Source of the DNA: Sphingobacteriales bacterium
Lineage (GTDB): Bacteria; Bacteroidota; Bacteroidia; Chitinophagales; JADJOU01
Length of the DNA stretch: 38,822 nucleotides
Assembly: GCA_021297855.1 (NCBI GenBank)
Contig: JAJTHM010000021.1
Location: 1-38,822 of the forward strand
Direction of reading: 5' to 3'
A program made the position numbers and the translations under genes. How positions within the stretch are numbered: the stretch's first letter is position 1; each line of letters begins with the position of its first letter. The notes below the pieces were generated by a model. The model did no database searches. It saw only the letters and a program-made list of their open reading frames with translations, and was not told where the DNA came from. Positions 1,512 to 24,200 of the stretch are shown here, in pieces.

Positions 1512-4500
1512 CTATTTTAATATCGTAATATTCCCCTTCTTAGTCATATTGGCTCCACCTATGCACTCTACATAGAGATGATAAGCAAATACACCAGGCT
1601 CTAACTCTATTCCTTTATAAGTGCCATCCCACCCTTTTTTCTGATTGGTACTTTCAAAGACAAGCTGCCCCCACCGATCATAAATCATGAATTGCATTTT
1701 TTGGATATTATCTCCCATCACATAGAGGGCATCATTTTTTCCATCCTTGTTGGGAGTGAATCCTGTAGGGACATATACTTCTGGGTCATCGCAAACTTCA
1801 TAATATACAGTGACTACGACAGAGTCCCCGCTCCGGCATCCTAGCGGATCTCTCACCTCTACATAGTAGGTGGTCGTCGTATCAGGTGAGGCTTCTGGAC
1901 TAGGGATAAACTTATTGTCCAAAGTCCTGGATGGCGACCATAAATAGCCGACGACATTTGAAGCACTCGCTTGTAAAATCGTTTTCGAACCGTATTCTAT
2001 TTTATCAGGATTGGCAGTGACACTCAGGTCATCTAAATATCTGCTATAATCTACTTTAATGGAGTCTCTATATTGACATTTAGTAAAAAGACTACTCAAT
2101 GCTACGCATCGAATAAGTGCGGAATCAACAATCTTATAACTGACAATGTTCTTGTTATTAGCAATCCAATTCGTCGGATTCCAATTGTAGGTGAAGGTAG
2201 GATTAAAATTAGCATTGAGAGTTAAGGTATCTCCTTTGCATACTAGTTTATTCCCTGCAATTTTTAAGAACAAAGTATCTTTTCTCATAGCGATGCTATC
2301 TATCACAGAACATCCTATTCCGCGATTCAAGTTTGCATTGATATAAAATTTTGTATCCTGATTTATCCAAGCTCTAATTTTATTTGTCCCTTGACCAGTC
2401 AAAATGGGTTGTGATGGAGCCCATTGATAGGTTACCTTTGATAGGTTGGGTACTTCTAATTTCACTGTATCAAATTTGCAGACAATCGAATCTCGCGATA
2501 GAAATTTAAAAATAGATGCATTGAAAATTTGAATTCGCAAGGAATCATTTAATCTACAATTATTCGAATCTATTACCGTGAGTCTGTATGTGGTAGGTTG
2601 TGTTATAGTCACTATCGTTTTATTGGTATTGGCTCCTGTTGACCATTGATAGCTGGCTCCATTCAATTGTGTGGCATTGAGCGAGACCGTATCGCCTGCG
2701 CAGACCACGGTATCGGCCCATAGTTTTAAATTAGGGTTTCCCACAAAAACGAAATGTGTATCTACAGCAGTACATTGATTCTTAAATCGGGCAGTAACAA
2801 AATAATTTCTACTGACATCGGTTTTAAATACAGCCGTATTGAGAAGAGAATTGAAAAGGGCATTGATAGGTCCCCAGACATAAGACGTATTAGGAATCAA
2901 ACTTGCCGATAGACTCACAAAACTATCTTTGCAGTTGCTGAGGGGGCCTTGAATTTGGATGAGGTTTTCAAATAAACGAACCCTAGCCGTGTCTCTATAC
3001 ATACAAGCTGGTCTGGAGATGAGTGTCGCTTGAATATAAATACTACTATCATTGCTAAACGGCCCAAATCGCGCAGGACTGACCCCTTGCGTGGTCTGTA
3101 ATAGAGCATTTGGATTCCAAATGAGTGCCCACCTAGAGTTTAAGTTTGCAATGACATCTACACTCTGCCCTCTGCATGTTATGGTATCGGGGTTCCAATT
3201 TACAGCGTCCTGTAATAGTTTAAAAGAAATTGTTTTGTTCGCGTAGCAGGCATTATTAACCCTATATTCAATATGGATGGTTCGGGTGGTATCTACTCGA
3301 AATTGGGCCGAGGTTGCATTTTGAGAAATGATATTCGAACTAGGATTAAACGTATATTGGCCTCCTAATAAATTAGATGAATAATTTATCGTTAAAATCT
3401 CATCCTTACAACCAATTGAATCCATCTGCAAGTTTAGAGCGGCATTGACTACTTGGACTTGCATACTATCATGCGAAATGCAATTAAAATCTGAGACATA
3501 GCTTAATTTCACCTTGGTATTGGTATTGATAATTAATCTAGCGCTATCTCTATTTTGAAATGCAATCAGATTAAATGGTTCCCATTGATAAATTCCATTG
3601 GGATAGTTTGTACCTATAAATAATGCGTCCTCTAACTTACAAACAACACTTGGACCATTTATAGATAAAGGTTTAGGAGTGTCTATGAGGACTGTTTGCT
3701 CTAGAGTATCGGTACACCCATTTTTTGTGAGATAAGCTCTAAACGTGGTTTGTGTATTTACTTTTACCTTAGGAGAAAAAGTAGTACTCCCAGACATTTG
3801 ACTATTCGGGGTCCAGGAAATAGTGGCACCTGGATCAATAATTCCCCTTAGACCTATGATAATAGAGTCGCCCTTACAACTTTTGACGGGAGGTAGAGTA
3901 GTAAAAGCGTTGTTTAGAATATAAATTGATTTCCTAATCGTGTCCGTTTTGTTACATGATGAATTATCATTAATGATTAGAGTCACATTTTGCAAACCAT
4001 AGCTTGTAAAAGTAAAACTTGGATTGGTTTGCGTAGAGGTTCCTTGACCATTAAAGTTCCACAAATAATTAGGACTTGCCGATACAGCTCTCGAAGTGTT
4101 CGTAAAGTTTATTGATAAATTTTGACAATTGGTGTTGGCTGTAAAATCAGCTTTGGCAGTTTGAGAAGTATCTAAATGCCGCACATAGAACGAATCGAAG
4201 ATATAACATTTTTGGGTATCTTGAATATGTACATAAAAATATTGTGATTGGCTCGGTTTGGCTTTTATTTTAGCCGTATCCACCTTGCCTATTATGGGCG
4301 GGAAGGGTGTCCATTGATAGGTAGCGCCATTCATCTGGGTAGCTTGAATGTATGAAGTATCACCAGGACAAATCACGGAATCTCCGGTTATTTTTATTAA
4401 ATCATTCACAATGCGAATACGAATCGAATCCGTTTCTACGCAGTTATTATCGACTACCGTCATGCGATAAAATCCAGTTTGTGGAACCCTAAATGTAGCT

Positions 4501-7500
4501 GTTGTATCCGTTTGATTGAGAAGAAGAGAAGCGGGACTCCATTGCACATTAGCGCCTTTAGAACTGCTGTGACGAATCGTCACAAGACTGTCTTTGCATT
4601 TTAAGGTATCCGCAGTCAAATTCATAAATAAATCAATGAATTTTACCAAAGCAGAATCCTTAAATTGACAATAACTTTTAAGATTATGCGTAGCTTCAAT
4701 ATATACTTTTCTATTGGTATTGCTAAAATTAAAGCGCGCAGGGCTGGTGCTTTGAGGTGTGACTAAAGTCGCAGCTGGTTGCCACAATATCGTATAGTTT
4801 AGATGCGTTGCGGCAGTAGCTACTATTTCTTCATTCCAGCAGACGATGCTATCCACCTGCCAATTTACCTGATCCTTTAACAACTTGAAGCGAATCGTAT
4901 CACGGGCAATGCAGTTGGTTGAAATTGTTTTTGTCGCTATGAGACTAAAGGTGGTATCTAGTATAAATCTCGTGGTATCGCCATTTTGAAATAGTGGGCT
5001 TATAGAAGGAGAAAAACTAAGAGTACCCCCTTGAAAATTTGATTTCGCCAATAAAGTGATAACATCTCCTTTGCAACCTATTGTATCTGCTTCTATAGTT
5101 AAGGTCGGTGTGCCGGCTACAATCGTCTTTTTGGTAGTGGAAATACAACCATAAATACTCGTATAGTTTACTGTGATATCCAGGGGTAATGTTGTAAAAG
5201 TAAATTCAGCAGTGTCTCTATTTGATTTCGTTAAAACACTTTTTGGCAACCAATCATAATTGCCTTGAGAATAGAGATTCGTGGTGAATAAAGTTTTAGC
5301 TCCTACACAAGAAATGTTGTCTCCTACTATGATGAGATTCTTAGGGGTATCTACGATCACTCTCTGGTAAAAGGTATCCGTGCAACCTGTCTTTTTAATA
5401 ATAAGACGATATTGGGTGGTATTCGATGGGGAAGCAAACGGGGACAGGATACTGGTATCGTCAATGCTTGAAGTGGGTGTCCAAGTAAAGGTCATACCTG
5501 TATCCTTAATATTCGTGAAGCCTATTCTCACAGAACTACCTGCACAGATAGTTTTATCGGATAACGTATCTGAAGTAGTTCCTAAAACCACTATAGTTTT
5601 AAAGATTGTATCTGCAATATTACAGGAAGTGGTATCTCTGACAATCAATCTAGCAGAATAGAGCCCTGGATTTGTGAAGGTTATTGTTGGTTCTTTGACT
5701 GAGGATGTGGCCCCATTGCTAAATAGCCAGAAAAATTGAGTATTGGTACTGACTGTATGGCTGAAGTTATTCATCTTGATATTCGCCGGAGCACAGGCTG
5801 GGGTGTAGGTGAAATCTGCTTTCACCGGAAGCCCGAAGTCGAATTTGAAAACGCCAAGGTTGCAATTGCTGCTATTGTTTGTAGGGCCCACTACAGAAGC
5901 TGCATTTGGATATATTGGGAAATTTTGTTGTCCACCACAGCCAGCGCACACGGCATGATAGACAATCCCATTTTTGTCAAACCTGCTGGTTCCGCCATCC
6001 ACATGTTCTTCTGATAAAGCAGTAGTTCCGCCGAAAAAGCTGCCATAATACAAGGCACTCAAATCCCCTTCCAATATCATCATATAAAATCCATTGCCAA
6101 GAGTGGTGGATTGAAAAGCATTTGAAGTCACTGGTAAACCAGATGTATTTAGAGAAAAAGTATTAAAGGATCCAAGATTACTACCCCATCCAGTGATGAA
6201 TATTTTATCACAATAGTCCACCAAAAAGGCTGTGGGAGATATGTCTGGGTTTTGATTTCCTCTGCCAAACATGGTAGAGCGAAGTTTAGCGCTCACAGTC
6301 GGATTTAAAACAGATACAAATTGACCTGTATGTGGAATTGAATAAGCAGCACTTACTAAAAAATAATTCGTACTACTATGGGTCGTCTGCCCTAGCACAT
6401 AAACTTTGCTACTGTCGCCAGATTCTACAAAATAGATTTGATCATAATCTGAAGTTCCGTAATAGGTTGCATAGCGCAGCGAGGTCAAATTGTTATTGAG
6501 CGATACAACCATGCCATCGGTACCTCCACTATAGGTTCCATTGACTACCCCGCTCGTAGCGCCTATGTTAGAAGAAGCTGTTCCTCCAGCGGCTATAATG
6601 TTTCCTGCCTTATCAAAACATAAGTCATATAGCGCATCGTCTCCCGATCCTCCTATGTAGGTAAAGCTAAGTAAGGTTGTCAGATTGGTATTAAATTTAG
6701 CTAGAATACCATCGTAGCTGCCAGAGTTAGTCGTTTTAAAGCCCCCAGTCACGGTAGGTAAATTATTTGAATTGGATAGCGAGGCTAAATAGATATTCCC
6801 CAAAGTGTCTGTTTCTATTTCTCCGCGAATACCATCGCCATAGTTTTTCACCAAGTCGGTGCTAATTCCTACTCCATCTGTACTAGAGCCTCCAAAGTAT
6901 GAAGAGCCGACAAGTCCTGTTCCTGTGGGATTAAATTTTGTAATGGCTATGTCCGCACCATTTGGATATGAAATACCTAGCCCATTCAAAGAAGGTATGC
7001 CAGAAAGTGCGGGTCCTCCTGCATGTGTTCTTCGAAAGGCACCTACTGTGGTTGGGAAATTTGTAGAACTTGTCGTAGAAAGCAAAATGAGCCTATTATT
7101 TTGGTCCACGACAAGGCTATGAGGCACATCAAAACTAGTGCCACCAATATAAGTAGAATAAACTCGTGCATTACCCGTAGGGGTAAATTTTGTAATTCCA
7201 ATATCGGATTGACCACCAAAGGTGGTCTGATAGGCACCCATTGTCGTTGGGTAGCCAGCAGCGAAAACCAAGCCTGTTCCGTATAGGTGACCAGCAAAAT
7301 CATAGGTGGCCGACGCTCCAAAATTGTCTCCAGTAGAACCGCTATACGAACTAAAAATAATTTGAGGATCGATTTCTAATACTTGACTTCCAATGATTTC
7401 CTTTATATCTACCTGAAAGCTCAATACATTGTTTTCGAGAATAAAATTACTGCTGATGTCTCTTATCTGACCTTCTTGATGCAGAAAGGTAATTGGTTTT

Positions 7501-8150
7501 TCATCTACAACATCGCCGAGGACAGTCGTTGAAACTAAATCACCTTTGGTATTGAGATATAAATTGGCAAGACCATTAAATTTCATTTTTATATCACTCA
7601 CTTTGGCTCCAGCGCGGAGGTAAAAGGTGTATTTGGGTTGAAAATATTTAGAACTGATCACTAAATCAATGTGAGGATAAATATCTTTGTACCGGACATC
7701 TTCAAATCCATGACAACCTCCTTTCCACTGTGATGGGTCTTCTCCAAGGAAATAATTGAAATACTCTTCAAATTTCTTCTCAGGGTAGATTTGTGGATTA
7801 GGATGACTATTTAAAAATTCTATATTGTACGCATGGGCATTGCAGGGTTTGCTGAAATCAAAGCTAGAATCAAACTTATGACTATTATTTTCCGCTACAT
7901 TTACTGTGATTTTATTGTTCTCAAGGTATATAGCCCCATTTTTAATATTTGTCTTAAACCGCACATTTTGATGCCATTGACCTTTATTTTCTATATAAAT
8001 TAGCTTACTCGATGAGCCATTGTGTGCGAATGCCTGCAATTGATAGATAAGTGTGAAAAGAAAAACATGGAATATTCTCACGAATATGTTTTGTCGTTTA
8101 GAAATATTATTCACACAAATATAGGCAATTACGAGTAAAACTCCAAGCAT
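1512..8150 (-). CDS. Giant T9SS type B secreted protein (SBBP propeller, PKD, Ig-like modules)
   Basis: Secreted or cell-surface protein of 2212 residues. A hydrophobic export segment lies near residues 24-42. Residues about 48-270 match the N-terminal domain (ENKGQWHQNV opening) that precedes SBBP repeats in Bacteroidota surface proteins. Residues about 270-775 are SBBP-type beta-propeller repeats (for example YSTYIGGTSFDVPHSLVVD). Two PKD domains start near 778 and 1334, each followed by short Ig-like modules opening with a CxGDxxxL-like motif (14 counted). The last ~95 residues (from about 2118) are the gliding-motility C-terminal domain, with VPTGFTPNKDGKNDALYV and IYDRWGQLVFES, the type B sorting signal for T9SS. 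The PKD-plus-six-module block is duplicated with a 556-residue period. The PorP/SprF-like gene follows directly. Likely an adhesin or filament; ligand unknown. The ATG start puts about 23 residues before the hydrophobic segment, so the start could be slightly different. Confidence 0.93.
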   Translation of the reverse strand: MLGVLLVIAYICVNNISKRQNIFVRIFHVFLFTLIYQLQAFAHNGSSSKLIYIENKGQWHQNVRFKTNIKNGAIYLENNKITVNVAENNSHKFDSSFDFSKPCNAHAYNIEFLNSHPNPQIYPEKKFEEYFNYFLGEDPSQWKGGCHGFEDVRYKDIYPHIDLVISSKYFQPKYTFYLRAGAKVSDIKMKFNGLANLYLNTKGDLVSTTVLGDVVDEKPITFLHQEGQIRDISSNFILENNVLSFQVDIKEIIGSQVLEIDPQIIFSSYSGSTGDNFGASATYDFAGHLYGTGLVFAAGYPTTMGAYQTTFGGQSDIGITKFTPTGNARVYSTYIGGTSFDVPHSLVVDQNNRLILLSTTSSTNFPTTVGAFRRTHAGGPALSGIPSLNGLGISYPNGADIAITKFNPTGTGLVGSSYFGGSSTDGVGISTDLVKNYGDGIRGEIETDTLGNIYLASLSNSNNLPTVTGGFKTTNSGSYDGILAKFNTNLTTLLSFTYIGGSGDDALYDLCFDKAGNIIAAGGTASSNIGATSGVVNGTYSGGTDGMVVSLNNNLTSLRYATYYGTSDYDQIYFVESGDSSKVYVLGQTTHSSTNYFLVSAAYSIPHTGQFVSVLNPTVSAKLRSTMFGRGNQNPDISPTAFLVDYCDKIFITGWGSNLGSFNTFSLNTSGLPVTSNAFQSTTLGNGFYMMILEGDLSALYYGSFFGGTTALSEEHVDGGTSRFDKNGIVYHAVCAGCGGQQNFPIYPNAASVVGPTNNSSNCNLGVFKFDFGLPVKADFTYTPACAPANIKMNNFSHTVSTNTQFFWLFSNGATSSVKEPTITFTNPGLYSARLIVRDTTSCNIADTIFKTIVVLGTTSDTLSDKTICAGSSVRIGFTNIKDTGMTFTWTPTSSIDDTSILSPFASPSNTTQYRLIIKKTGCTDTFYQRVIVDTPKNLIIVGDNISCVGAKTLFTTNLYSQGNYDWLPKSVLTKSNRDTAEFTFTTLPLDITVNYTSIYGCISTTKKTIVAGTPTLTIEADTIGCKGDVITLLAKSNFQGGTLSFSPSISPLFQNGDTTRFILDTTFSLIATKTISTNCIARDTIRFKLLKDQVNWQVDSIVCWNEEIVATAATHLNYTILWQPAATLVTPQSTSPARFNFSNTNRKVYIEATHNLKSYCQFKDSALVKFIDLFMNLTADTLKCKDSLVTIRHSSSKGANVQWSPASLLLNQTDTTATFRVPQTGFYRMTVVDNNCVETDSIRIRIVNDLIKITGDSVICPGDTSYIQATQMNGATYQWTPFPPIIGKVDTAKIKAKPSQSQYFYVHIQDTQKCYIFDSFYVRHLDTSQTAKADFTANTNCQNLSINFTNTSRAVSASPNYLWNFNGQGTSTQTNPSFTFTSYGLQNVTLIINDNSSCNKTDTIRKSIYILNNAFTTLPPVKSCKGDSIIIGLRGIIDPGATISWTPNSQMSGSTTFSPKVKVNTQTTFRAYLTKNGCTDTLEQTVLIDTPKPLSINGPSVVCKLEDALFIGTNYPNGIYQWEPFNLIAFQNRDSARLIINTNTKVKLSYVSDFNCISHDSMQVQVVNAALNLQMDSIGCKDEILTINYSSNLLGGQYTFNPSSNIISQNATSAQFRVDTTRTIHIEYRVNNACYANKTISFKLLQDAVNWNPDTITCRGQSVDVIANLNSRWALIWNPNALLQTTQGVSPARFGPFSNDSSIYIQATLISRPACMYRDTARVRLFENLIQIQGPLSNCKDSFVSLSASLIPNTSYVWGPINALFNSLLNTAVFKTDVSRNYFVTARFKNQCTAVDTHFVFVGNPNLKLWADTVVCAGDTVSLNATQLNGASYQWSTGANTNKTIVTITQPTTYRLTVIDSNNCRLNDSLRIQIFNASIFKFLSRDSIVCKFDTVKLEVPNLSKVTYQWAPSQPILTGQGTNKIRAWINQDTKFYINANLNRGIGCSVIDSIAMRKDTLFLKIAGNKLVCKGDTLTLNANFNPTFTYNWNPTNWIANNKNIVSYKIVDSALIRCVALSSLFTKCQYRDSIKVDYSRYLDDLSVTANPDKIEYGSKTILQASASNVVGYLWSPSRTLDNKFIPSPEASPDTTTTYYVEVRDPLGCRSGDSVVVTVYYEVCDDPEVYVPTGFTPNKDGKNDALYVMGDNIQKMQFMIYDRWGQLVFESTNQKKGWDGTYKGIELEPGVFAYHLYVECIGGANMTKKGNITILK

Positions 8151-13697: not shown

Positions 13698-14286
13698 TAA
13701 GGGCTTTGAAATTGAGATTTCTGATGGAGATGATGAAGAAGATTTCAAGGAGTTCGATGTTATTTTTGATTTAAACTTTGATGATGATTCAGAAAATTTT
13801 CCCATCTATGCAGGATTGAGGGATAAGCTTCTCTTTCTATCCTCCGTAAAACAAAGTCTGTCAGAGGCCTCTTATATCTATCCAGCCAAGGTTCGATCTA
13901 GAATTTTTGGCATCAATGCAATCGAACATTATCTGAAGTTGGATACAATAGAGTTATCTGCTTTTCGCAAGAATGAGTGGAACTTTGCGCAGGATTTTTT
14001 CTCCAAGTTTGGACTCAAAACGATGCAAGTGGAAGACATCGTTGGTATGTATCGACCGCGTGTCGATTTTCTGGGATGGAATGAAAGAATCAAGTTGCTC
14101 AATGAAAACATCATTTCTCTTGAACACAATTGTTTTTACAAAGATTTCCAATTTATTGATCAAATAGGCGTTACCTCCATATTTGAAGTGCTTATGGCTA
14201 TCTATGAAGATACAAAAGATACCTGTTATCTGCCCTCGCCATTACTCAAGAGAAAATATCTGAGAAATCATAGTTTTGTGAAATGA
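13633..14286 (+). CDS. Degenerate 3-hydroxyacyl-CoA dehydrogenase-like protein
   Basis: A 217-residue protein that I read as a decayed relative of 3-hydroxyacyl-CoA dehydrogenase. The C-terminal end fits that family's helical domain: IDQIGVTSIFEVLMAIYED, then YLPSPLLKRKYL, matching the usual 'D.IGLD..L.VM..LY....D..Y.PSPLL'. The middle FGLKTMQVEDIVGMYRPRVD corresponds to the 'LGK.PV.V.D.PGF..NR' stretch. The N-terminus ILIIGEENLSQLL sits where a GxGxxG NAD-binding loop would be, but the glycines are gone, and an acidic insert (DGDDEEDFKEFD) follows. NAD binding is therefore doubtful. It starts inside the peroxidase gene (65-base overlap) and overlaps the next gene by 4 bases. It may be a structural or regulatory paralogue. 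The relationship is by eye and needs a profile search. Confidence 0.6.
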   Translation: MEKILIIGEENLSQLLRKKLDNKGFEIEISDGDDEEDFKEFDVIFDLNFDDDSENFPIYAGLRDKLLFLSSVKQSLSEASYIYPAKVRSRIFGINAIEHYLKLDTIELSAFRKNEWNFAQDFFSKFGLKTMQVEDIVGMYRPRVDFLGWNERIKLLNENIISLEHNCFYKDFQFIDQIGVTSIFEVLMAIYEDTKDTCYLPSPLLKRKYLRNHSFVK

Positions 14287-15524
14287 TGCTAATTTATATT
14301 TCTGCTCCTAGTTCACGCCTGCACTATGTCTTTGACTTCGTGTTGCGTGAAACTTTGGCTACGGAGTATGAATTTACGTCTAATTTAGATTTTTATAATT
14401 CCTCAGACAATAGATTCAAATGGTCTTATGGGCAAGAATTAAATAATACGCCTTCACTGCCAGCAGCAGCTATTTTGTGGCAGACGAACATTGATCATCA
14501 GCCTTGTTCGAAATTAGTACGAGAAGATATTATTCCTATTTTTGAAACGGAGGCCTACGGTGAAATTAATTTCGATGTATTGGCTTCTATTTTTTATTTG
14601 ATTTCACGTTATGAAGAGTATTTGCCTTGTGTCAAGGATAAACATGATCGTTATGCAGCCATCCAGAGTATAGCTTATCAATATGGATTTCTAGAAACGG
14701 CTATGGTCAATCGCTACATACTATGGCTAGTGCGATGGCTGAGAAGTCATTTTCCTGCTTTAGATATAAGAATACCTAAACCCAAAGCGCTCCTAACGGT
14801 GGATATAGATCACCCATTTTATACTAAAGATGTATCGTTAGGGAAATGGATCAAACGCAGTTTGAAAGAATTCAGTTTTCTGAGTGAGACTGACAAGTAT
14901 GATACAACCGATTTTATGTTGGAAACATTAGGCGAATTGGCATCTATATTTTTCATACTGTGTCCTAAGAATCCAAGCGATATGGATCATTTCAATCAAA
15001 GGGACTCATCCGCTTTCATAGATTTGATAAAAAAGTTAAAAGCTAAGACGAAAATGGGTTTGCATCCATCCTACTTTTCAGAAGAAAAAGGTCTTCTCGA
15101 AGAAGAGTTGTCATGGTTGTCGTCCTATCATGAACGCCCACTGAAATCCACTCGTTTTCATTACCTGCGTTTTGATATAGAGACTACGCCGAGCTTACTA
15201 ATGAAAGCGGGAATTCAAAATGATTTTTCACTTGGATATGGAACGCATGCAGGTTTTAGAACGAGTTGCAGTCTGCCTTTATATTTATTTGATTTGAAAA
15301 AGAACCGAAAAACAAATTTGAAAATATATACCCCATGCATTATGGATAGTGTTTTTAAATATGGAGAAGTAGATAATTTTGATGAAAAATCAAATCAATT
15401 GATAGAAGAAGTACAAAATTATGGAGGCGTTTTTATCCCTATTTTTCATAATGATATAGTGGCTGATGAAGAGTGGCAAAAAAAATTCTTAAACTGCGTG
15501 GATAAAATGAAAACCCTAGGATAA
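14283..15524 (+). CDS. Polysaccharide deacetylase family protein (DUF7033-type)
   Basis: A 413-residue protein. The N-terminal half has the signature FDVLASIFYLISRYEEYL (near residue 98), typical of the DUF7033 domain that precedes an NodB-like deacetylase fold in Bacteroidota. The second half carries LLTVDIDHPF (the Asp-containing first motif of the fold), GLHPSYFS (the metal-binding His motif) and RFHYLRFDIETTPSLL followed by GYGTHAGFRTSCSLPLYLFD. Such proteins probably deacetylate an envelope or exported glycan, but the substrate is unknown. There is no signal peptide, so a cytoplasmic site is suggested. It overlaps the gene before by ATGA and lies 2 bases before the HAD gene. Confidence 0.83.
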   Translation: MMLIYISAPSSRLHYVFDFVLRETLATEYEFTSNLDFYNSSDNRFKWSYGQELNNTPSLPAAAILWQTNIDHQPCSKLVREDIIPIFETEAYGEINFDVLASIFYLISRYEEYLPCVKDKHDRYAAIQSIAYQYGFLETAMVNRYILWLVRWLRSHFPALDIRIPKPKALLTVDIDHPFYTKDVSLGKWIKRSLKEFSFLSETDKYDTTDFMLETLGELASIFFILCPKNPSDMDHFNQRDSSAFIDLIKKLKAKTKMGLHPSYFSEEKGLLEEELSWLSSYHERPLKSTRFHYLRFDIETTPSLLMKAGIQNDFSLGYGTHAGFRTSCSLPLYLFDLKKNRKTNLKIYTPCIMDSVFKYGEVDNFDEKSNQLIEEVQNYGGVFIPIFHNDIVADEEWQKKFLNCVDKMKTLG

Positions 15525-20368: not shown

Positions 20369-21040
20369 ATGTCAAAGGATATACACGCTATTGTTATAGG
20401 AGCTAATGGATTGATAGGTGCAGAACTTACCAAGCAACTATTAGAAGACGAAACCTACACTAAAGTCACTTTGGTTGTGCGCAGATTTCTGGATTTGGAA
20501 CACGACAAATTAGAAACTAAAATAGTTGATTTTCGCGATATTCACAAGGATTGGAATGTATTCGTTTGTGATCATTTATATTACTGCCTAGGTACTACTA
20601 AATCAAAAACCCCAAAATCAGAAGAATATCAAAAGGTAGAATACGACTATTGCATCAATATTGCGAAAATTGCCCACCATAATAAGGTAAAGAAATTTCT
20701 TTACTTGAGTTCATCAGGTGCTAGTCCATCTTCTTGGTTTACCTATCTGAAATTAAAAGGAAAAACAGAGAATGAACTTATTAAGATTGGATTCGAGGTT
20801 CTTCATATCTTTCGGCCCTATGTTTTAATTGGAAAACGATCGGAAATACGGTTCTTTGAATCAATCGTTCAGTTTTTTTTGAAAATATTCAATTTTATGA
20901 TGATTGGCTTTTTGAAAAATATAAAAGGAATGCCAGCAGGTCAGTTAGCCAAGGCCATGATTCATAATGCCAAACTCAGCTCCAAAGGAGTCTTTATTCA
21001 TTCAAATAAGAGTATTCATGATTTTTTTCCTAAGAAATAG
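20369..21040 (+). CDS. NAD(P)-binding SDR-like oxidoreductase (HTATIP2-like)
   Basis: Atypical short-chain dehydrogenase of 223 residues. The nucleotide-binding loop is IVIGANGLIGAELTKQLL (GxxGxxG at about 9-14), followed by VTLVVRR, where the basic residues suggest NADP preference. The catalytic-type YxxxK is YLKLK, after the serine-rich YLSSSGASP strand. RPYVLIGKRSE is typical of the NmrA/HTATIP2 subgroup, which often has redox-sensor or assembly roles. The substrate is unknown. Its 3' end overlaps the beginning of the next gene by about 20 bases, so it is co-translated with the CapA-like gene and probably heads the operon reaching to 25981. Confidence 0.85.
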   Translation: MSKDIHAIVIGANGLIGAELTKQLLEDETYTKVTLVVRRFLDLEHDKLETKIVDFRDIHKDWNVFVCDHLYYCLGTTKSKTPKSEEYQKVEYDYCINIAKIAHHNKVKKFLYLSSSGASPSSWFTYLKLKGKTENELIKIGFEVLHIFRPYVLIGKRSEIRFFESIVQFFLKIFNFMMIGFLKNIKGMPAGQLAKAMIHNAKLSSKGVFIHSNKSIHDFFPKK

Positions 21041-23030
21041 TTTAGTTATAGTACTACTTTTCTTAGTTCAAAACACTTATGGCCAGTTTGAGAAAATCTC
21101 TGTTCGCAATACGTCCATTGAGTACGAAAAAGATCTCATAGCGGATACCTCTGCGCATTATCTCAAATTAATGCTCTGTGGAGACTTGATTCATAAGAGC
21201 CAATTGCTCAAAAAATATGCTCAGCCTAAACCCGATCAATATAATTATAGAAGTTGGTTTAGACAGGTAAAGCCCCTATTTTTTTACCCAGATTATGTTG
21301 TAGGAAGTTTGCGATCCTTCTTTCCTAATCGTGCGAATGTATCGACTTTTCCAAATAGCGCCCCCGATGAGTTTCTGGCGGAGTTGGAATACACAGGATT
21401 CAATGTGCTCATGATGTCAAATGCAGATGCCTTGACCGATAGAGAGCATTTGAATCAAATGACACTGAAAAAACTTAACTATACGGATATCTTTCGTGTG
21501 GGTTCATACAGTGATACATTGGATAAAAAATCCAACTTCCCGCTCGTTTTAGAAAAGAAGGATATGCGAATAGCTTTCTTAAACTATTCCTGTGACTCAG
21601 TGCTATTAGATTTACCCTCTCATCAGGTTAGTTTTTTTCATTTGGACTCTATTCGAAGCGATGTCAAGAAAGCCAAGGACACGATGTTGGCGGAATATGT
21701 TATCACCTATATTGATTGGGCAAAACAAGATTCACTGAAATTAGGCAAGGTGGCGGAGTTGCTCAATATGGGAATAGATGTTATTATCGGTACTGGAAAT
21801 GGACAAGCTTTCACGAGCGCAGATTTATTATCGTTTTCAGATGGCTCTTTGAAACTGCATGTGGATAATATTGGATATTTCAATGCTGAATCTAATGAAA
21901 GAGAACGGGATAAGTCAGCGGTAGTAGAGATTGTACTAAAAAAGGATAAAGTATCGAAAAGAGTGACAACCCATGACATGGGTTTTATACCACTCTGGAC
22001 TCTAATTGATCATGATCGATATGCCGTTTTACCTATCTCCAATGTAGAAGAAAAACATATAGAAGATATCAATCTAAATATTGTGCAATACTCCACAATG
22101 AAGGTAGCCTTGACCGATTTGCGATATGCATTTTTCGATAAAATTCCAGAACTTCATTATGATTTCAATGATCGCGTCGTTGAAAATGTAGAACAAACGG
22201 CGTTTATTCGAAAGACTCTCATGCGCGAACAGGATAAAATCAATGAGGTAGTTAAGAATAATGCTATTGCAGAATATGTCAATCTATTTGGTTCTAAACC
22301 GCCTTCTCATGGCTCATTAGATATACCTTATGAAGATATTTGGGACATGTATCCTAAAAAACCAAGAAAAAAGAATAATGAAAGCACAAGAGATACTATA
22401 GAAATCTATGGAGAAAAAGATGAATTATCACCACGCGGGATAGTGAGTATAAAAGCCAATCATAAACGCTATCAGCGTGAGCGTGTAAAGGTATTAAGCG
22501 CAAGAGAAAAATTCATCATAGATTCCATTCGTCAGTATAATGAACGATTCATAATTGTGGATAGTATAGCCGAATTAAAAAAGCTATTAAAACGTAGAAA
22601 ACAAGATAGCGTAAGAAGAAGAGATAGTATGTTTCAAGCTAGTTTGAATCCGAATTATAAATCGTCCTATAATCCTACTCCAGAAATATCGAGGGCTCCT
22701 GAGTATAGACCTATTCCTAAATCAGGCGTTTATACTCAACCAGAAGCCACGCGGGAAGAAAATTTGCCAGTCAAGAATATAGAAGAATATTTCATGGTGC
22801 AGATATATACCTTATCAAGTAAAAAATCGATTGATTTAGATAAATTTCCTTATCTATCAGGGTATGAAATAAGGTATGAAGATTCCTACTATAGGTATTA
22901 TATAGGTCGAACCAATTCGAAGGCCTTGGCTATAGAACTTTTGAGGAGTATCAAGGGTAAAGGTCACCCGGATGCAATCTTGGTTAAATATACCGATGGT
23001 GTGCGCACTACAGTCAAAACTAATTTTTAA
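21018..23030 (+). CDS. CapA-like pseudo-metallophosphatase with C-terminal SPOR domain
   Basis: Exported protein of about 671 residues. The ATG at 21018 gives a clean signal peptide (IFFLRNSLVIVLLFLVQNTYGQ); an earlier ATG at 20967 would put 17 polar residues before it. Residues about 44-355 align with the CapA/PGA_cap metallophosphatase fold: LMLCGDLIHKSQ, YNYRSWFRQVKPLFFYPDYV, SAPDEFLAELEYTGFNVLMM, MRIAFLNYSCDS. The metal-ligand motifs are all altered: the usual GNLE is GSLR, NNHxLD is SNADALTD, HWGxE is IDWAKQD and GSHPH is GTGNGQ. Enzyme activity is therefore unlikely. A long charged linker (about 430-580) leads to a SPOR-like domain in the last ~80 residues (EYFMVQIYTLSSKKS, YRYYIGRTNSKALA), which in known proteins binds denuded peptidoglycan. 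Next gene starts right after the stop. Confidence 0.82.
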   Translation: MIFFLRNSLVIVLLFLVQNTYGQFEKISVRNTSIEYEKDLIADTSAHYLKLMLCGDLIHKSQLLKKYAQPKPDQYNYRSWFRQVKPLFFYPDYVVGSLRSFFPNRANVSTFPNSAPDEFLAELEYTGFNVLMMSNADALTDREHLNQMTLKKLNYTDIFRVGSYSDTLDKKSNFPLVLEKKDMRIAFLNYSCDSVLLDLPSHQVSFFHLDSIRSDVKKAKDTMLAEYVITYIDWAKQDSLKLGKVAELLNMGIDVIIGTGNGQAFTSADLLSFSDGSLKLHVDNIGYFNAESNERERDKSAVVEIVLKKDKVSKRVTTHDMGFIPLWTLIDHDRYAVLPISNVEEKHIEDINLNIVQYSTMKVALTDLRYAFFDKIPELHYDFNDRVVENVEQTAFIRKTLMREQDKINEVVKNNAIAEYVNLFGSKPPSHGSLDIPYEDIWDMYPKKPRKKNNESTRDTIEIYGEKDELSPRGIVSIKANHKRYQRERVKVLSAREKFIIDSIRQYNERFIIVDSIAELKKLLKRRKQDSVRRRDSMFQASLNPNYKSSYNPTPEISRAPEYRPIPKSGVYTQPEATREENLPVKNIEEYFMVQIYTLSSKKSIDLDKFPYLSGYEIRYEDSYYRYYIGRTNSKALAIELLRSIKGKGHPDAILVKYTDGVRTTVKTNF

Positions 23031-24200
23031 ATGCAGATAATTTCAGAACCTGGTTGTCAAGTCTTTAAATTGGTGGCCTTGTTTCCAATAGGGCGAAGGC
23101 TAGAGTCCAAGCGAGGCTTGGTCCAATCTGTAGCTGCCATGATGAAAAAATCTACACAGACCAAAACCAATAAGACCTTACATGAGTTTTTAGACAGATT
23201 TAGTATTCAAATTGAAATATATTCTACCCCAACACATGTCACAGCCCAGTTGCATTGCCATAAAAAATTCATTGAACAATCTATACCTATTCTATTTGAA
23301 ATCCTTTTTCAAGCCAGATTTACAAAAAGTCAATGGGAATTAGTTCGACACCAAACGATTGATAATATCGAACAACAAATGAAACAAACAGATTTTTGGG
23401 CAGACAAATTGCTGACGGAACATTTGTTTGGAGAGAACCACCCTTATGGCTATTATAGTGAGCCTAAAGATTATATGTGTATTCATTTAACTGAAATAGA
23501 AAATTTTTATTCCACATATATTCAGCATCAAAAGCCGGAAATTTTTCTAGCAGGAGATCATGTGCAAGTCGCTAAAGGATTCATCCATAAAGAGATGAAA
23601 AAATATAAACTGAATAATAGACTAAAAAAGTCAGATGTAAATATTGCATATCCAGATCCAATCATGCTGGAAAAGAGAATTGAAGGTTCCTCGCAAGCTT
23701 CAGTGCGATTAGGAAAATTATTTCAAAGAAGGTCTTTTGAGGATTTTCAAAAGATGGAATTATGGACAATGCATCTTGGAGGATATTATATGTCAGAGCT
23801 CATGAAATTATTGAGAGTAGAAATGGGATTGACCTATGGAGTCTATACCCATTTGAATCACTTTCCTGGGACTACAATTTTGAACATAGGATTTGAAACG
23901 GATAAAAAAAACGTGCCGCTCGCTCTTGAAGCAATATCTGAGCTATTTGAGCGTTTTCAGAAGGAGAAGAGAATTGAAATATCAGCTGCCCGCAAGGAGT
24001 ATTTCAGCCAATGGTCCAAGAATTCTGAAAAGTCATTGCAAGAAATTATGTATAAAGTTCGAATGTTTAAACTAGGGTATGATTATACATCCTACAGTAA
24101 CTGGGTAAATTCATTAGAGGATACCCCGAATTCTAAAACCATCCTTATGGACCCAGCTATTTTCGATTTCTCTTCCTATTCTAAATCGGTGGTATATTGA
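23031..24200 (+). CDS. M16 peptidase homologue lacking the zinc site
   Basis: A 389-residue protein of the M16B (pitrilysin/processing peptidase) fold. GRRLESKRGLVQSVAAMMKK aligns with the family's 'GSR.E...GLAHFLEHMLFK', so the HxxEH zinc motif reads QxxAA here. The second half keeps the substrate-binding Arg/Tyr region, LLRVEMGLTYGVYTHLNHFP. In bacterial M16B heterodimers one subunit carries HxxEH and the other the Arg/Tyr pair; this protein looks like the non-catalytic kind. No catalytic partner is in the window, and no signal peptide is seen. The ATG directly follows the TAA of the CapA-like gene, and its stop overlaps the next gene, so coupled translation is likely. Confidence 0.85.
   Translation: MQIISEPGCQVFKLVALFPIGRRLESKRGLVQSVAAMMKKSTQTKTNKTLHEFLDRFSIQIEIYSTPTHVTAQLHCHKKFIEQSIPILFEILFQARFTKSQWELVRHQTIDNIEQQMKQTDFWADKLLTEHLFGENHPYGYYSEPKDYMCIHLTEIENFYSTYIQHQKPEIFLAGDHVQVAKGFIHKEMKKYKLNNRLKKSDVNIAYPDPIMLEKRIEGSSQASVRLGKLFQRRSFEDFQKMELWTMHLGGYYMSELMKLLRVEMGLTYGVYTHLNHFPGTTILNIGFETDKKNVPLALEAISELFERFQKEKRIEISAARKEYFSQWSKNSEKSLQEIMYKVRMFKLGYDYTSYSNWVNSLEDTPNSKTILMDPAIFDFSSYSKSVVY

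Follow-up and report, generated by a model that had tools for sequence, protein, structure and literature searches.

We found that a whole clade of Chitinophagales keeps a CapA protein that would lack the normal chemistry of its family, is probably docked to the cell wall, and is encoded in a conserved gene pair. The member described here lies in a stretch of 38,822 nucleotides, which we call the window. CapA proteins are widespread and poorly understood outside capsule synthesis. We consider it fairly probable that the window protein is secreted to the periplasm, held there on peptidoglycan, and works as a pseudo-enzyme through binding, in the style of DipM; if so, it is a candidate cell-wall regulator in Bacteroidota. 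Full-text literature searches for CapA with SPOR, or for a pseudoenzyme with SPOR, turned up nothing on a protein of this kind.

The initial annotation of this DNA had the coordinates and reading frame of the gene right (ATG at 21018, 670 aa; Table 1). An alternative upstream start at 20967 would add 17 residues ahead of the signal peptide. Cleavage probably occurs before Gln23, which is nearly invariant in the alignment of relatives, and the signal peptide has no lipobox Cys. A helical segment follows the CapA domain and runs to about residue 424 in the AlphaFold2 model.

Table 1. Features of the CapA-SPOR gene and its upstream neighbor, in window coordinates.
Feature	Position	Strand	Basis
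Upstream SDR gene, NAD(P)-binding, TIP30/HIM1-like	20369..21040	+	Pfam, synteny
Pseudo-CapA-SPOR gene, 670 aa	21018..23030	+	ORF, Pfam, AlphaFold2 model, relatives
Putative signal peptide, residues 1-22	21018..21083	+	Hydrophobic N-terminus, N-terminal helix in model
CapA (PGA_cap) domain, residues 46-345	21153..22052	+	Pfam, model, MslH Z 28.9
GD motif, Asp56 = MslH Asp11, retained	21180..21185	+	MslH-mapped alignment
GSLR replacing GNLE, metal ligand Glu44 to Arg99	21303..21314	+	Alignment; ligands from PMC10406935
SNADALTD replacing ANNHxxD, Asn87 to Ala136, His88 to Asp137, Asp91 to Thr140	21417..21440	+	Alignment
IDWAKQD replacing xHWGxE, His259 to Asp233	21711..21731	+	Alignment
GTGNGQ replacing G[SA]HPH, His295 to Gln263	21789..21806	+	Alignment
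Charged low-confidence linker, residues 425-588	22290..22781	+	pLDDT 28-50 over most
SPOR domain, residues 590-665	22785..23012	+	Model, structural matches, Pfam 20.1 bits alone

The CapA fold recognized by the initial annotation is real. The CapA/PgsA capsule-synthesis family (PF09587, PGA_cap) has a calcineurin-like fold, and its Pfam model matches residues 50-259 of the window protein with 60.4 bits (E 2.4e-16) against a cut-off of 27 bits. The AlphaFold2 model has a pLDDT of about 90 across residues 46-345. Its top solved match is the lasso-peptide epimerase MslH (Z 28.9, rmsd 3.3, 290 residues by VIA-align), which Foldseek also ranks first (E 1.2e-12); calcineurin-like phosphatases and other metallophosphatases follow at Z 13-17.

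The metal ligands of MslH (Glu44, Asn87, His259, and His261) and its dyads (His88/Asp91 and His295/Asp11) have been tested experimentally (PMC10406935). Ordinary CapA proteins do not conserve His261; the Gly of HWG occupies its position. The alignment bears out the initial annotation's claim that GSLR, SNADALTD, IDWAKQD, and GTGNGQ are altered motifs, and mapping the protein on MslH shows the canonical ligands missing except Asp56. That Asp belongs to a fifth motif, GD, which the annotation overlooked when it described all four usual ligand motifs as altered; the window protein and the rest of its family, f1, keep GD unchanged. It is the only member of the motif set of a competent CapA protein (GD, NLE, NNHxxD, HWG, and HPH) that is kept. 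In place of the MslH dyads stand Asp137/Thr140 and Gln263/Asp56, with Glu at position 263 in sister genomes. The altered motifs are fixed across four genomes of the window's genus and align in register. Metal binding and catalysis would be expected to be lost with the canonical ligands.

How far do these losses extend beyond the window? Relatives were gathered by whole-genome searches, and the resulting alignment holds 86 proteins: 37 from the clade, which comprises Chitinophagales families f1, f5, f8, and f20, and 49 CapA proteins drawn from the class and from the order's other families. A scan of genome contigs for close relatives of the window protein returned one locus, in a Chitinophagales MAG, and a scan of viral contigs returned none. 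All seven mapped residues (D11, E44, N87, H88, D91, H259, and H295) are kept in each of the 49 CapA proteins outside the clade, whereas N87 is lost in 37/37 clade members. The losses are mildest in f20, where D11, H88, D91, and H295 are kept and E44 mostly so, and f5 keeps D11 with some of the histidines. The heavy end of the gradient comprises f8 (D11N, E44K, and H295N in 26/26; H259D in 25/26), f1 (E44R or E44S, plus H259D), and genus g6 of f5 (G009 and G064), which is without even the GD motif. At both g6 loci (L137:5546-7003 and L138:5542-6999), the CapA-SPOR gene stands before coaX and the SDR gene is missing. The initial annotation had argued from loss at every site together, an argument that does not hold for the family, where the losses deepen by degrees from f20 onward. 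It had also named intact homologues in the same clade as evidence against its reading; none of the 37 members is fully intact, but those of f20 are nearly so. In this natural series, from near-intact to fully dismantled sites, binding by the CapA fold could be tested separately from catalysis.

In the tree, the clade is separated from all intact CapA proteins by a branch with 99/99 support, and f20 lies closest to the intact proteins. This branch persists at 99/99 when every motif column is removed, and we therefore reject the idea that the clade is an artefact of shared motif loss. A sister relation of f1 and f8 has 82/72 support with the motif columns and collapses without them; the Lys/Arg-Asp pair that these families carry may thus have arisen once or twice.

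Fusion to SPOR does not by itself explain the loss of the site. Two proteins of f12 (L076 and L077), and a weaker case in f4 (L078), have the same domain order as the window protein but every CapA motif intact, and in the f12 pair SPOR scores above the Pfam cut-off. Fusion and site loss are therefore separable, and fusion as the cause of the loss is rejected. The f12 proteins are placed apart from the clade, so the fusion either occurred separately or was lost in between. No SDR gene was found beside the intact CapA-SPOR genes at G016 or G133.

The gene is under purifying selection. In comparisons with G001 and G002, dN is 0.08-0.11 and synonymous sites are saturated. The CapA domain is 91% identical to that of G001, above the 88% of the whole protein, and 86% identical to that of G002; between families, CapA-SPOR identity is only 20-40%. 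Nearly all clade genomes searched have exactly one PGA_cap gene, and no second one was found in the window's genome. G031 is the sole clade genome searched with a clear second PGA_cap gene, which encodes an extra CapA protein of about 348 aa (L139:3409-4455; 164 bits to PGA_cap) besides the degenerate CapA-SPOR protein. A role for the CapA-SPOR protein as regulator of an active CapA paralogue is unlikely given this distribution.

The initial annotation had described the C-terminus as a SPOR-like tail that would place the protein at peptidoglycan lacking stem peptides. Fold and structural matches support the domain, but its Pfam score (PF05036) stays below the cut-off, at 13.9 bits on the whole protein and 20.1 bits (E 8e-4; cut-off 21) when the region is scanned alone. 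Folded alone, the region reaches a pLDDT of 92.7 and adopts the beta-alpha-beta-beta-alpha-beta RNP-like fold, with a very short first helix. SPOR domains make up five of its six top structural matches (CwlC, Z 7.9; RlpA, 6.6 and 6.2; DamX, 6.0; DedD, 4.9), and a sequence profile ranks CwlC first, weakly (E 0.03). The nearest SPOR domain in the window's own genome, at 34% identity, is C-terminal on an N-acetylmuramoyl-L-alanine amidase (L008:355-1731), the type of enzyme that produces denuded glycan. In-frame stops were counted in that matched stretch or its flank and are probably just the terminal stop of the amidase gene. The Gln through which SPOR contacts glycan, Q270 in RlpA (PMC6895207), is present in the window domain (MVQIYTL); most members have Q at this position, L006 has E, and f20 has K or R. 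The window domain also shares a basic residue in strand 3 with the SPOR domains of CwlC, RlpA, and DamX, but it reads YTL where GAF stands in those and is attached to CapA rather than to an amidase or lytic transglycosylase. Its fold, the conserved Gln, and the amidase SPOR in the same genome make denuded peptidoglycan a plausible target. Glycan specificity is not assured, because the score is just below the cut-off and the GAF segment is changed, and both points weigh against the reading we favor.

As the initial annotation proposed, the best fit remains a pseudo-enzyme that binds or scaffolds, although on grounds other than simultaneous loss: the canonical ligands have been lost, the gene is kept as a conserved single copy, and the window's genome has no intact CapA. 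The ancestral CapA domain would have been a metal-dependent enzyme on the calcineurin-like fold, and its metal site would have been dismantled stepwise within the clade. In f8 and f1, Lys or Arg takes the place of the Glu ligand and Asp that of the His ligand; with no metal present, the site would thereby be neutralized, and the cleft would remain as a surface for binding. Through its long flexible linker, SPOR would hold the CapA domain on stripped peptidoglycan at division or remodelling sites, the septum included. There the domain would control, by binding, a wall enzyme or a protein of the envelope. Two observations pull the other way: most ligands are still present in f20 members, which may have stayed active, and Asp56, Asp233, and Glu/Gln263, which persist in f1, could form a different metal site. 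The initial annotation had named such alternative ligands as evidence against its reading.

Could the new residues have a function of their own? It is possible, if doubtful, that the site was rebuilt in f8 and the window's genus, with Lys/Arg and Asp forming a metal-free pocket for ligand recognition that SPOR presents at the wall. Across f8 and f1, substitution of E44 by Lys or Arg is accompanied by Asp at H259 in all but one case. Of 285 columns in f8, 56 do not vary; these include N11, K44, and N295, and D259 is nearly invariant. D11N, E44K, and H295N also stay invariant in a non-redundant f8 set (H259D in 19/20). Position N87 varies freely there, among the 5% most variable columns. This re-fixing in f8 speaks for the pseudo-enzyme reading as well. 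Because MslH holds one and the same ion with Glu44 and His259, the residues now in their places should lie near each other. A rebuilt site would define a regulator class derived from the CapA fold.

Alternatively, the cleft may still catalyze with other residues, perhaps metal-free or with another metal; candidate sets are Asp56, Asp137, Asp233, and Glu/Gln263 with Arg99 in f1, and Asn/Lys/Asp/Asn in f8. The invariance of several f8 replacements and the persistence of acidic residues in f1 would suit such an enzyme, and MslH itself is a CapA-family site rearranged for a new reaction (PMC10406935). However, the equivalents of the catalytic His88/Asp91 and His295 are all gone from the window protein, the residues differ among f1, f5, and f8, so that there is no common new active site, and genus g6 of f5 keeps the gene after losing even GD. 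We regard continued catalysis as rather unlikely.

The genes around the CapA-SPOR gene bear on a further possible role. The SDR gene lies directly upstream in 18 of the 21 clade loci with sequence there, and was found beside none of 11 intact CapA genes whose flanks were checked. In the window it shares 23 bases with the CapA-SPOR gene, and by eye the SDR protein has GANGLIG and YxxxK intact. Downstream, most f5, f8, and f20 loci continue with coaX, an outer-membrane protein gene, and lptC. If this neighborhood is functional, the protein could be a SPOR-anchored structural adaptor, or one for lipid or outer-membrane assembly, in which CapA spaces or docks the wall to the outer-membrane export machinery. 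The same neighborhood is absent from f1, including the window, and from G031, G091, and G012; moreover, coaX has a housekeeping role in the cytoplasm, so that co-expression alone may account for the cluster. We think such an adaptor improbable. The difference in downstream genes between f1 and the other families also counts against the pseudo-enzyme reading.

In f1 the CapA-SPOR gene is followed by an M16-like gene and a CHU_C gene. The adjoining M16-family protein of the window (23031-24200) has no HxxEH zinc motif (it reads KRGLVQSVAAMMKK), and the same holds in sister genomes; judged from these sequences, it is therefore a probable second pseudo-enzyme. Elsewhere in the window, a 2212-aa protein on the minus strand (1512-8150) carries DUF7948, PKD, Ig-like, and type IX sorting (CHU_C) domains and is probably a large surface protein. 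A DUF7033 protein (14283-15524) is encoded among a di-haem cytochrome c peroxidase gene, an orphan ORF, and a HAD-like gene.

It is very improbable that the window protein is an ordinary active CapA whose unusual site is functional and whose motif calls are alignment errors. GD is intact, and f20 members reach 200 bits to PGA_cap, but motifs in register across the four window-genus genomes, with the structural support of the MslH match, all but refute this explanation for the window protein. A decaying pseudogene, which the loss of six of seven mapped residues might suggest, is rejected as scarcely credible: the frame is open in the sampled clade genomes, the operon is conserved, and the low dN against saturated synonymous change, together with intact residues in 49/49 outside homologues, argues against decay or chance.

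The window protein is homologous to the CapA/PgsA family, with the same fold and motif order and the GD motif kept. It differs in that six of the seven MslH-mapped ligand or catalytic residues are replaced, and in being secreted with a SPOR tail; no pgs or cap synthesis genes were recognized beside it. MslH (PDB 8gq9, 8itg) is the nearest solved structure, but it is only 17% identical, the equivalents of its E44, N87, H259, H295, H88, and D91 are all lost, and no lasso peptide cluster was seen around the window gene. The closest analogues in mode of action may be the LytM regulators DipM and EnvC. Their domains (LytM/M23 and LysM) are unrelated to those of the CapA-SPOR protein, in which Pfam finds no LytM (Peptidase_M23) match, and autolysin regulation is drawn from them by analogy only. 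In DipM, a degenerate LytM site keeps one of three metal residues, and the groove around this dead site binds autolysins (PMC10336132). Like DipM, the CapA-SPOR protein would be a periplasmic protein that joins a peptidoglycan-binding module to a metallo-enzyme domain with a degenerate site.
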